DNA of 64,000 nt from the NCBI RefSeq assembly GCF_014764505.1, contig NZ_JACXWX010000007.1:62001-126000 (forward strand), written 5' to 3'. The notes beneath the pieces were generated by a model. That model was not told where the DNA came from, ran no database searches, and saw only the letters and a list, made by a program, of their open reading frames with translations. Position numbers and translations under genes: made by a program. The DNA comes from Phormidium tenue FACHB-886. GTDB taxonomy: Bacteria > Cyanobacteriota > Cyanobacteriia > Elainellales > Elainellaceae. Of the stretch, positions 6,890 to 12,428 are shown piece after piece. Within the stretch, counting starts at the first letter, position 1; each line of letters starts with the position of its first letter.

Positions 6890-9880
6890 ATGAGAGAAAC
6901 TACAAAGCTACCCGTCACAGCGATCCGCAACCGCAACCAGCAGCGAGTGAACGGCTGGGGCTGGCTGCGATTCCTCAATCTACGTCCAGAAGAGAGCGAG
7001 CGGACGTTTTTGATGTTTGCCTCCTACACCCTGACCTCAGTAGGTATTTTATGGTTTGAAGTCAGCGTTGCAGCTTTGTTCTTAGGGGAATATGGCGCAG
7101 AGTCACTGCCCTGGATCTATTTGGCAAGCGCTGGAATGGGAACGGGGTTGGGTTTTATCTATTCCTGGCTGCAGCGAGTGCTGCCGCTGCATCGTGTGTT
7201 GGTGGTGTCTTCGGTCTTGGTGGCGTTGCCGCTGCTGCTGTTTTGGGCAGGGATGAATCCAGTTTTGCTGGGCGGTATTGTGGTGTTTTTGATGCGGCTG
7301 TGGCTGGAGGCTATTTATGCCGTGAACGAGCTGAATACCACCATTGCTGCCAATCAGCTTTTCACGATTTGGGAGATTAAACGCACCTATCCGTTTGTAA
7401 GCAGCGGCATTTTGGTGGCAGATGTACTGAGCGGGTTCTCCTTGCCGATCTTGCGATCGTGGGTGGGCTTGCCTAATGTGATTCTGCTCTCATGTCTGAT
7501 GTTGCTCATGGGTGCAGGCATTCTGTACTACGTCACCCGGATTTATCGGCAGGCATTTCCAGATTTTTCGCGCCGCCGCTTCCGGGAAAAATCGCCCGAC
7601 TACAGCACCCGGATACAGGGTTCTGTGCGGCAATATGTGGTGCTGGTGTTTGCGTTTTTCATCATGCTGCAGGTGTTGGCGCTGCTGCTCGACTTTCAGT
7701 ATCTCAATCAGTTGGAGCAGCGTCCCAATGTTAGCGTTGACGATATTGCAGATTTTTTAGCGGTGTTTAGCGCCATTCTAGGTGCCTTTGAGCTGCTCAC
7801 CCAGTGGTTTATCTCAGGGCGAGCCATTCGCCGTTTGGGAGTGTTTGGCATCGCCATTTTGCCGCCTGCATTCATCACAGGCTTAAGTGTAATCACCTTG
7901 AGCGGAGCCATCACTTTGTTTGCTGGGATCATAGTGCTGAAGTTTTTGGACGAACTGCTGCGTTACACCCTGGTTGCCAGTACGGGACCCATCTTATTTC
8001 ACCCTATTCCCGATGCTAGCCGCAGCCGCATTCAGTCGATCGTCCGGGGAATTGCCGAGCCGCTCTCAACAGGCGTAACGGGTGTAGTCATGCTAATCAC
8101 CCTATGGCTGATCGAGCATACTAGGGCTGGCTCTATTGCCAATTCTCAAAGTCTGATCTTCCTATCGTACACAGCGTTGTTTTCGCTGTTCTGGCTATTT
8201 GCCGTCCTGATGCTGCGCACAAAATATGTGGAAGTGCTCGTCCTTAGCGCTGAACGAGGACAGCTCACTCAGGTCTCTGAGATGGATTTACCTGTTCTGC
8301 GGCGCAACATCGCCGAGACGCTGAACCGAACAACTTCCTCACGCGATGCAATATCACGCTTTGAAGAAGAGCAGAAATCCTGTATTGAGATGCTGTCTCA
8401 GACCGATCCGAAAAATGCTGCAGAGGTGCTCGCGCCGTTGCTGTCTCGCTTGCCTCCTGCCCGTCAGCACCAAAGCCTAGAGGCAATGCTGAAGCACCCC
8501 AATCCTGCCTACTTGGAACAAGTGCGATCGCTGATTTCTCAGCCCCTGCCGCCAGAAGTCTACGCTGTAGCGCTCCGCTACATCTGGCTTACTGAACCGA
8601 ATCCCGATATGAACCAGCTACGCGACTACTTGAAGCCAGAAGTCGATCCAGTCATCCGTGGGACAGCAGCATCCCTGATGCTGCGGCGTGGCGATCCACA
8701 GCAAAAAGCCGAAGCCACCGAAACTCTGCGGCGAATGCTGACCCACAAGCGAGAGCGAGAACGGGTGATGGGCTGCCGGGCATTAGGCGAAGCAGACTAT
8801 CTGCAATCGCTGCGGCTTTATATTGAACCGCGACTGCAGGATGAATCGCTGCGGGTGCGCTGCGCCATGCTGGAGGCGATCGCCGCCACTCACTCAGAAG
8901 CCTACTATCCTGCCTTGCTAAAAGGGTTGTACTACAAATCCACTCGCGATGCCGCTAGACATGCTTTAGAGCGGTTGGAAAACGAAGCAATTCCACTCCT
9001 GCTGAACCTGGCAGAAGATCCCTACAAACCAGAAGTCGTGCGGGCAACTGCTTGGATGACGATCGGGCAGATTGGCACCGCAGAAGCGCTAGAAATTTTG
9101 GTGACTCGCTTGACAACGGCTTGGGGCTGGAATCGGCATGTGCTGCTGCGGACGTTAATGAAACTACCCCCGGAAACAGCCGTGTCTGTGGTGGAGCAGC
9201 TCATTGGTCGGAGTGGTGTAGAAGCGTTAATTGACCAGGAGCTACAGTTTCTTGCCCATATGTACGCCAGCCTGCTAGATCTTGACCCTGAGCTGGCGAA
9301 CAGCGAAGCAGCCAACCTGCTGCGGCGTGCCTTACGTGACTCAGAAGCCGACGCGATCGAGCGTCTATTCATGCTGATGCGGCTTATGTATGATTCCAAC
9401 AAAATTCAGGCGGCAGCGTTTAACTGGCGATCAGAATCCCGGGATAACCTGGGGCGAGGCTTAGAGATTCTAGACAATACGCTAGACTTGCACCACAAGC
9501 AGGCGCTGTTGAGTATTCTCGATCGTCAAGCTGATTCTGAAAAGCTAAACAGTCTTGCTGACATTTGCCCCTATACGCCCTTTTCCCCCAACCAACGCTT
9601 GCGTTTTTTAGTGGATTTGCGGCATTTCCTCTCAGATTGGGCGCTCGCCTGCTGCTTCCACTTAGCACGGCAAATGCACTGGAGCCTCACTTCAGATCAA
9701 GTTCTAGCCTGTCTTCGTTACCCAACTGGCTTTGTGCGTGAAGCTGTGCTTGCCTACCTGCAGACCGCCTCGCCTACTACGCTACAAGACTTGCTGCCGC
9801 TGCTGAAGGATGACCCCAACCCGCTGGTTGCCAGTCAAGTACGGGAGCTGATGACAGAAGGGATAAGGGGCAAGAGATGA
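6890..9880 (+). CDS. Nucleotide-translocase/MFS-like membrane protein with HEAT-repeat C-terminus
   Basis: A 996-residue protein in two halves. Residues about 40-430 form roughly a dozen hydrophobic segments resembling the ATP/ADP translocase (NTT) and MFS transporters. Residues about 450-990 are soluble, with tandem helical repeats of HEAT type (for example around ALGEADYLQSLRLYIEP and RATAWMTIGQIGTAEALEIL). The substrate cannot be told from the sequence; I did not confirm the charged residues needed for nucleotide exchange in plant NTTs. The ATG at 6890 has GAGG six bases upstream. A cyclic-nucleotide-binding gene follows 113 bases later. In some bacteria related proteins carry such a domain in the same chain, so the two probably work together. 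Confidence 0.75.
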   Translation: MRETTKLPVTAIRNRNQQRVNGWGWLRFLNLRPEESERTFLMFASYTLTSVGILWFEVSVAALFLGEYGAESLPWIYLASAGMGTGLGFIYSWLQRVLPLHRVLVVSSVLVALPLLLFWAGMNPVLLGGIVVFLMRLWLEAIYAVNELNTTIAANQLFTIWEIKRTYPFVSSGILVADVLSGFSLPILRSWVGLPNVILLSCLMLLMGAGILYYVTRIYRQAFPDFSRRRFREKSPDYSTRIQGSVRQYVVLVFAFFIMLQVLALLLDFQYLNQLEQRPNVSVDDIADFLAVFSAILGAFELLTQWFISGRAIRRLGVFGIAILPPAFITGLSVITLSGAITLFAGIIVLKFLDELLRYTLVASTGPILFHPIPDASRSRIQSIVRGIAEPLSTGVTGVVMLITLWLIEHTRAGSIANSQSLIFLSYTALFSLFWLFAVLMLRTKYVEVLVLSAERGQLTQVSEMDLPVLRRNIAETLNRTTSSRDAISRFEEEQKSCIEMLSQTDPKNAAEVLAPLLSRLPPARQHQSLEAMLKHPNPAYLEQVRSLISQPLPPEVYAVALRYIWLTEPNPDMNQLRDYLKPEVDPVIRGTAASLMLRRGDPQQKAEATETLRRMLTHKRERERVMGCRALGEADYLQSLRLYIEPRLQDESLRVRCAMLEAIAATHSEAYYPALLKGLYYKSTRDAARHALERLENEAIPLLLNLAEDPYKPEVVRATAWMTIGQIGTAEALEILVTRLTTAWGWNRHVLLRTLMKLPPETAVSVVEQLIGRSGVEALIDQELQFLAHMYASLLDLDPELANSEAANLLRRALRDSEADAIERLFMLMRLMYDSNKIQAAAFNWRSESRDNLGRGLEILDNTLDLHHKQALLSILDRQADSEKLNSLADICPYTPFSPNQRLRFLVDLRHFLSDWALACCFHLARQMHWSLTSDQVLACLRYPTGFVREAVLAYLQTASPTTLQDLLPLLKDDPNPLVASQVRELMTEGIRGKR

Positions 9881-9993
9881 AGAATGAAAAGGGAAGAATA
9901 AAGTGGATCAATCTGATTCAAAATTACTAAAGAATTACTAAGAGTAAGTAGATTTCTTTCCTCATCTCTTTTCACATTCCTCCTCTTCGTACC

Positions 9994-10485
9994 ATGCCCA
10001 GCAGCATCGATCGCCTCCTCTTCGTTCGCAAAGTACCAATTTTTCAAGAACTCCGATATGACTTTTTGATGCGGCTGGCATCGATCATGGAGGAGCTAGA
10101 GTTTCCTGCCAAACACCGAATTTTTTCGCAGGGCGAGGTGGGTCGATCGCTTTACATTTTGGTATTGGGTTCAGTGCGGGTGCATATTGGCGATCGGGAG
10201 CTGGCAGTGCTGAAAACAGGAGCCTGCTTCGGGGAGATGGCAATTTTTGATGCGGAGCCACGCTCTGCCTCAGTGACAACACTGGAGTCTTGTAAGTGCT
10301 TAATGCTGAAGCAGCAGCAGCTTTATGAGGCGATCGAAGAAACGCCCGATATTGCTGTAAATATTATTCGCCTGCTGTCACGTCGGACCCGTGAACTCAA
10401 TGAAAAAATGAATGCGCTGCAGGAAGAGCGCAGTCAGGCAGAGGTGCTTCCACCTCCGCCTCCGCTATTACGCGAGCGACGTTAG
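9994..10485 (+). CDS. Cyclic nucleotide-binding domain protein
   Basis: A 163-residue protein that is a single cNMP-binding domain with a short charged and proline-rich tail. The phosphate-binding cassette reads FGEMAIFDAEPRSASV, which keeps the Glu and Arg that hold the cyclic phosphate and ribose, so it should bind cAMP or cGMP. There is no DNA-binding helix-turn-helix, so it is not a CRP-type regulator. Residues after about 130 (RRTRELNEKMNALQEE) look like a short coiled coil. It follows the HEAT transporter and may act as its detachable regulatory domain; this is inference. Confidence 0.88.
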   Translation: MPSSIDRLLFVRKVPIFQELRYDFLMRLASIMEELEFPAKHRIFSQGEVGRSLYILVLGSVRVHIGDRELAVLKTGACFGEMAIFDAEPRSASVTTLESCKCLMLKQQQLYEAIEETPDIAVNIIRLLSRRTRELNEKMNALQEERSQAEVLPPPPPLLRERR

Positions 10486-10645
10486 TCAGTCTTTGCTTTG
10501 AAAGGTTGACAACTATTTTTGTGTAAAGAAAGTTGTGTGAATCTAAACCTTAGTTACAAGATAGCCTGTGGTAAGTAAACCGATCGGACGAGGGTGATAG
10601 GGTGATCTGCAATACCTCATCGCATCAACCTTCGGATAGAGTTTT

Positions 10646-10822
10646 ATGTACGGTAAAGATTCAAAAAAAGATTGGGTCAGCTCTGCAATTACGGCTGCTT
10701 TGGGTGCTGGCGTAGTCACTACATTTGCCATTAGCCAGGGGCAGCATCCGTTGATGGCATTCGGCATCACAGGGTTTGCCGTTGCAGCCACGCTACTGCT
10801 CGATCGATATTTGTTCTCGTAG
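10646..10822 (+). CDS. Small membrane protein, 58 residues
   Basis: The frame runs ATG at 10646 to TAG at 10822. The peptide has a charged N-terminus (YGKDSKKDW) and two hydrophobic stretches, about residues 13-29 and 36-52, consistent with a helical hairpin in the membrane. Codon use is like the neighbours and the frame ends cleanly. There is no recognisable family or strong Shine-Dalgarno sequence. It lies 160 bases after the cyclic-nucleotide-binding gene on the same strand and could belong to that unit. Confidence 0.62.
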   Translation: MYGKDSKKDWVSSAITAALGAGVVTTFAISQGQHPLMAFGITGFAVAATLLLDRYLFS

Positions 10823-11222: not shown

Positions 11223-12428
11223 ATGAAAATCTACATTCCTCGCTTCCACCAACCTCGTTTACTCTGCCGTTGGCAAAGCAGCTTAGCAGGCTTGCTGCTG
11301 GCAGCAATAGTCGCGGAGGCTGCTCCTGCCGTAGCTCAATCTGCTGGGGGAGCGCTGCAGCTCAACGATAGCGGTGATGCGGTGGTGGAGTTGCAGCGCC
11401 GTCTTACGAATCTGGGGTACTACGACGGCGAAATTACAGGTTTCTTAGGTTCTCAAACCAAAGAGGCGATCGTGCAGTTCCAGCAGGAGATGGGTTTGAC
11501 AGCAGATGGCATTGTGGGCGCTGCCACTGAGGCAGCCCTACAAGAGCCTTCTAGTCAAGCTGAGCCACAAGCGGCTGGGGAATCCGCTGAGCCTCGGGCG
11601 GTTGTCCGCGTGGGGGACAGCGGCGAACAAATTGCCGAACTTCAACGCCGCCTCACGGATTTGGGCTATTACAATGGCTCAATCTCTGGCACGTTCGATC
11701 GCCCCACTGAAGAGGCAATTCAGCGCTTTCAACGCGACAACGGGCTACCCGCAGATGGCATTGTGGGCGCTGCCACTGAAACTGCGCTGCGGCAGCCTGC
11801 CGTACCAACTTCACCTTCGTCTACTTCGATTAATTCCGCGCCCAACTCTACAGCAGCCTCCGCTCCCTCCTCGGCTGCTCGTCGGGTAGCAGCGCTGCGG
11901 CTGGGCGATACCGGAACCGCGGTTTCGGAGCTGCAATCCCAATTGAGCGAGCAAGGCTTCTATAAAGGTGAAATTAGCGGAAATTATGATGCTCAAACGC
12001 AGACGGCCGTAACGAGCTTGCAGCGATCGCGGGGTTTAACGGTCGATGGAATTGCTGGACAGCAGGTGACAGAAGCGCTAGGAATGACGGCGATGGAGCA
12101 AACCAGTCAGGGCAGCAACCCACAGACCTGGCAGCAGCTCCAACAAACTCGACTGGAAGCACGACAGGCGCGTCAAGAAGCCGATCGTGCTAAGCAGGAA
12201 GCAGAGCAGGCTCGCTTAGAAGCAGAGCAGGCGAGGTTGGTTCTAAACCAAAATCTGCAGGAGGGACAGTATAGCGTCTCTGAGCTGCAGCGGCATTTGC
12301 AGCGGCGTGGCTACAACCCAGGTGAAGTTAATGGCGTGTTGAGTCCAGATACGCAAACTGCAATTACTGAGGCGCAGCAGCGCTATGGGCTCAGTGAGAG
12401 CGATTTTGCAGGCGACGGGTTGCCTTAA
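11223..12428 (+). CDS. Secreted peptidoglycan-binding protein with four PG_binding_1 domains
   Basis: The 401-residue protein begins with a signal peptide (hydrophobic core SLAGLLLAAIVAEAAPAVA, cleavage near residue 38). Four PG_binding_1 modules follow at about residues 46-104, 128-186, 224-282 and 351-398, each with a form of VxELQRxLxxLGYYxGxIxG. A charged coiled-coil segment rich in EARQARQEADRAKQEAEQ precedes the last one. Such modules bind cell-wall peptidoglycan; no catalytic domain is present, so a structural or scaffolding envelope role is likely. Modules one and two share an identical 29-base stretch (11502-11530 and 11751-11779), a sign of recent internal duplication. An AGGAGGC lies just before the ATG. 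Confidence 0.9.
   Translation: MKIYIPRFHQPRLLCRWQSSLAGLLLAAIVAEAAPAVAQSAGGALQLNDSGDAVVELQRRLTNLGYYDGEITGFLGSQTKEAIVQFQQEMGLTADGIVGAATEAALQEPSSQAEPQAAGESAEPRAVVRVGDSGEQIAELQRRLTDLGYYNGSISGTFDRPTEEAIQRFQRDNGLPADGIVGAATETALRQPAVPTSPSSTSINSAPNSTAASAPSSAARRVAALRLGDTGTAVSELQSQLSEQGFYKGEISGNYDAQTQTAVTSLQRSRGLTVDGIAGQQVTEALGMTAMEQTSQGSNPQTWQQLQQTRLEARQARQEADRAKQEAEQARLEAEQARLVLNQNLQEGQYSVSELQRHLQRRGYNPGEVNGVLSPDTQTAITEAQQRYGLSESDFAGDGLP

Follow-up and report, generated by a model that had tools for sequence, protein, structure and literature searches.

A cyclic-nucleotide-binding protein retained together with an NTT-HEAT protein in cyanobacteria

Proteins in which an NTT membrane domain is fused to HEAT repeats, with a gene for a cyclic-nucleotide-binding domain (cNBD) a short distance downstream, were described by Major, Embley and Williams (2017; PMC5381601). 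The same study reported three-domain fusions, a cyanobacterial distribution and repeated fusion and fission of the modules, and proposed that binding of cAMP to the cNBD adjusts NTT-mediated ATP uptake. No NTT-HEAT protein had been functionally characterised at the time of that survey. A search of the literature after 2017 returned reviews and citations of PMC5381601 and no functional study of an NTT-HEAT protein. For the homologous carrier AtNTT1, K527 and K155 have been proposed as ATP-binding and ADP-binding residues, respectively (PMC3306366). Removal of the C-terminal 41 residues of AtNTT1 increased ATP uptake more than tenfold, from which its authors suggested an internal regulatory domain (PMC3306366).

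The locus analysed here lies in a window of 64,000 nucleotides (the whole stretch of DNA that was analysed) from a cyanobacterial genome of 8.9 Mb, the nearest named relatives of which are Leptolyngbya-like forms and Drouetiella. Three open reading frames of 996, 163 and 58 aa, all on the + strand, were located at exactly the positions given by a first-pass annotation of the window. The features of the locus are as follows.

6890..9880, + strand: gene 1, NTT-HEAT protein, 996 aa (open reading frame; HEAT_2; family profile against the PDB)
9881..9993, + strand: spacer between gene 1 and gene 2, 113 bases, with no terminator-like site
9994..10485, + strand: gene 2, single-domain cyclic-nucleotide-binding protein (sensor), 163 aa (cNMP_binding, E = 7.5e-20)
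10485..10510, + strand: weak terminator-like hairpin starting from the sensor stop codon, where the unit could plausibly end
10646..10822, + strand: 58-aa small membrane protein, a conserved gene outside the transporter-sensor system (open reading frame; matched in 48/59 other genomes)

The hairpin was graded as weak because 8 terminator-like sites were found against 5.4 expected by chance. Genes 1 and 2 are interpreted below as probably forming a two-protein unit, a cAMP- or cGMP-controlled, NTT-derived carrier with a dissociable sensor. The computed basis for this interpretation consists of the domain content, the intact cassette of the sensor, the adjacency of the genes, their co-retention and co-loss when unlinked, and natural fusions.

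Gene 1 comprises a membrane domain (approximately residues 25-455) followed by a HEAT-repeat domain (approximately residues 470-990). The strongest hydrophobic segments all fall inside residues 40-452, and HEAT_2 repeats were identified in a domain search with E = 1.4e-16. No match to Pfam TLC (PF03219) was obtained with gene 1 of the window alone, which lies below detection; a PF03219 search of its own genome gave zero matches, as did the controls. A profile of the membrane domain built from 17 family members was compared with all PDB chains and matched only ADP,ATP carriers (9j3j, E = 2.8e-7; 9j3n, E = 3.9e-5; two sequence groups, both annotated as ADP,ATP carrier protein). One gene 1 orthologue also scored above the PF03219 cut-off (26.6 against 21 bits). 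On these two sequence comparisons the homology of the membrane domain to NTT carriers is considered established. The first-pass annotation had described an NTT/MFS-like channel joined to HEAT repeats; the NTT-like domain and HEAT tail were recovered, and the word channel is replaced here, since NTT proteins are carriers. Orthologues of gene 1 were found in 49/60 genomes searched (own genome counted). A structural model of the membrane domain alone, for which few sequences were eligible, reached a pLDDT of 38.6.

Key residues of AtNTT1 were located in gene 1 by alignment. In the profile alignment AtNTT1 E245 corresponds to E147 (Glu in 14 and Asp in 3 of the 17 members) and E385 to D268 (Asp in 15, Glu in 2). 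The membrane half also contains many invariant polar and charged residues, which together with the kept acidic positions fit a working carrier. At the position of K527 a lysine was present in 0/17 members; gene 1 has V396 there, and Val or Leu occupies the position in all but three members, the alignment being remote at this point with a 2-residue gap nearby. AtNTT1 K155 apparently corresponds to Tyr77, judged from a by-eye alignment only (SAEIIPFLK against GAESLPWIY); a dedicated N-terminal profile for this position gave no carrier among its matches. ATP/ADP exchange should not be assumed for gene 1, because the family shows no lysine at the position aligned with the ATP-binding K527 of AtNTT1. 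Nucleotide transport, as judged from sequence, is accordingly an uncertain assignment.

Two other accounts of gene 1 bear on these residues. The protein could be an NTT-derived signalling receptor and not a transporter, the membrane domain serving to sense or anchor while the HEAT domain and sensor transmit the cyclic-nucleotide signal onwards to other proteins. Absence of the K527 lysine from every member, the apparent change of K155 to Tyr77 and the strong conservation of the membrane domain would all suit a receptor, and no member had been characterised as of Major et al. 2017 (PMC5381601). Such a receptor is nevertheless unlikely given the acidic counterparts of E245 and E385, retained as Glu or Asp in 17/17 members, and the invariant polar and charged residues of the membrane half. 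Alternatively, gene 1 could be an ordinary exchanger of ATP/ADP or other nucleotides under cAMP control, as put forward by Major et al. (PMC5381601). Homology to ADP,ATP carriers agrees with this proposal, from which the family departs in missing the ATP-binding lysine of AtNTT1, and we regard it as rather improbable. The carrier interpretation can be extended, as a tentative suggestion, to an NTT-fold secondary carrier that is gated by a second messenger through a dissociable soluble sensor subunit and has a substrate other than ATP/ADP. It would represent a regulated class widespread in free-living filamentous cyanobacteria and strictly retained as a pair.

The cNMP_binding domain of gene 2 spans residues 35-116. 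Its phosphate-binding cassette, FGEMAIFDAEPRSAS (residues 79-93), is intact, and the cassette residues Glu81 and Arg90 are kept in at least 97% of 41 gene 2 orthologues, in agreement with the lone cNMP-binding domain with intact cassette noted at first pass. Sequences that closely match gene 2 include proteins of the CRP family, regulatory domains of kinases and the channels SthK and MlotiK1. Six class III cyclase domains were identified in the host genome.

The two genes are same-strand neighbours in 41/46 genomes that contain both within a sample of 60 relatives, and the matched ends of orthologous pairs lie 162 bases apart at the median. A conserved neighbourhood, on which the first-pass annotation had made its proposal depend, was thus found. 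The exceptions in this sample were G015 and G024, where transporter matches were incomplete and the sensor was not found, and G042 and G051, which have a sensor-like protein (41% and 51% identity, respectively) without the transporter. The 51%-identical sensor of G051 lies beside a cation-efflux gene; it occupies L071:5925-6398 (G051:C1) and overlaps the start of this cation-efflux (CDF) transporter gene by 11 bases. This suggests that the sensor may have acquired another transporter as its partner. Since G051 keeps a sensor without the NTT-HEAT transporter, the sensor may serve other partners too. Upstream of the transporter, infC was a frequent neighbour, seen there in 20 of the examined genomes.

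Co-occurrence was evaluated in two further samples. Across the phylum, with orthologues of the sensor counted at an identity of at least 64%, the sensor was present in 25/25 genomes with a full transporter and in 1/92 others. Within one cyanobacterial family (f29, 99 genomes), 82 genomes had both genes, 17 had neither and 0 had one only. The pair was unlinked in 47/82 of these genomes, where the genes were separated by kilobases to megabases or placed on different contigs, and the 17 losses were spread over nine genera; the tally counts genomes, which are not independent observations or events. Loss of both genes was also seen within single genera. G155 is without both genes and G102, G117 and G125 of the same genus have both; in another genus G220 (89% complete) is without both and G180 has both. 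In G079 and G232 (one genus) only fragments of the transporter were left and the sensor was gone. The fragments lie at L107 (G232) and L108 (G079), one being a C-terminal and the other an N-terminal part of the transporter.

Both proteins were found in one open frame of 1153 codons in G202, with a linker of a few residues leading from the end of the HEAT part into the start of the sensor. This single chain is at L106 (G202:C48:107500-113500), and relatives of G202 have the pair split. The fusion could be an assembly error in one genome, although the two parts meet cleanly and in frame. In a tree of cNMP domains the sensor part of the G202 chain clusters with the split sensors and not with the older, divergent fusions, which on sequence grounds makes it independent of the older three-domain fusions. 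Divergent NTT/MFS-HEAT-cNMP single chains are present in the same phylum, so that relatives with the cNMP domain on the same chain, mentioned in the first-pass annotation, were found both in these and in G202. Divergent single-chain loci are L066, L067, L068, L070, L072, L110 and L111; G037, G041 and G057 each encode a divergent single chain alongside the split transporter and sensor.

The genes are retained or lost as a pair even where a long distance separates them, which makes it very probable that transporter and sensor act as one unit. The order infC, transporter, sensor could in principle be an old gene order shared by descent, with the sensor acting independently, and the position of infC upstream of the transporter in 20 of the examined genomes is in keeping with this. 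Shared synteny of this kind is contradicted by the unlinked co-loss, with still zero discordant cases among the 47 unlinked genomes of the family, as well as by the single-chain fusion of G202, and is very improbable.

In the two-protein unit proposed here, the N-terminal half of gene 1 would form an NTT-derived carrier of the 12-helix type and the C-terminal half a HEAT-repeat scaffold, presumably on the cytosolic side of the membrane. Gene 2 would bind a cyclic nucleotide, most likely cAMP, supplied by the six class III cyclase domains of the host, and would dock on the HEAT scaffold through a predicted physical contact. Occupancy of the sensor may then alter the rate of transport of a putative substrate, either upwards or downwards. 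The sensor must sit near the HEAT end, because it is there that the natural fusion joins it. Control from the C-terminus would have a precedent by analogy, since deletion of the AtNTT1 C-terminus raises uptake. The pair was also modelled as one chain via locus L005, where both genes share one frame with only TAA stops between them; with only five loci eligible as alignment rows, the model had a pLDDT of 43.8 and a pTM of 0.28, values too low for an interface between the HEAT tail and the sensor to be read from it.

The 58-aa protein is small and hydrophobic, and domain and sequence searches gave no significant family match. It had been put forward at first pass as a possible third part of the transporter. 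As a third subunit it was rejected, since in relatives it shows no linkage to the pair and frequently neighbours a peptidoglycan-binding gene. The gene was missing from the flanks of related transporter loci, occurring on other contigs or far off, and it occurs in genomes without the pair (e.g. G028, G033 and G056). In 12/19 loci fetched from other genomes it lies no more than 1.5 kb from a homologue of a peptidoglycan-binding-repeat gene, and in the window such a gene is located downstream of it at 11223-12428. A three-part complex including the 58-aa membrane protein, for which adjacency in this genome alone speaks, is practically untenable in the face of this separation, of its presence in pair-less genomes and of its linkage to the peptidoglycan-binding gene. 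It stands beside the sensor in the window through a chance of local gene order, and the 58-aa protein is a candidate small-protein partner of the peptidoglycan-binding-repeat gene.

Cyanobacteria make cAMP, and to our knowledge few non-transcriptional targets of it are known in these organisms. NTT-HEAT proteins are widespread among cyanobacteria. From their strict co-retention with gene 2 it is predicted that the NTT-HEAT carrier requires the small sensor as a subunit. This names the partner to be included in any transport assay; if the sensor is left out, an assay of the transporter could be unsuccessful for that reason.

The closest described system is the NTT-HEAT protein with a separate cNBD, known from cyanobacteria and further bacteria (PMC5381601), from which the present locus is indistinguishable in architecture: the domains, their order, the downstream same-strand cNBD gene and the phylum are alike. 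The NTT-HEAT-cNBD fusions of cyanobacteria, Deltaproteobacteria and oomycetes share all three modules and their order; they differ in being one chain, which is divergent (approximately 20-25% identical to gene 1), and in occupying separate branches of the cNMP tree. The plastid and chlamydial carriers AtNTT1 and Npt1 (PF03219/TLC) have a homologous membrane domain with the acidic residues matched at E245 and E385, and the AtNTT1 C-terminus is a regulatory site (PMC3306366). In contrast to these carriers, gene 1 lacks the K527 lysine, and probably K155 too, carries a HEAT extension of approximately 530 residues and is accompanied by a separate sensor. SthK and MlotiK1 resemble the pair in combining a membrane transport protein with a cNMP domain believed to regulate it; in the pair, the transport domain is that of an NTT carrier instead of a channel, and the sensor forms a protein of its own. 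The arrangement is already known in kind, because both the split organisation and the idea of regulation were published in 2017 (PMC5381601). What is added here is not a new system; it is the co-retention and co-loss of the unlinked genes, the single chain of G202, the comparison of residues with AtNTT1 and the finding that the 58-aa protein does not belong to the unit.
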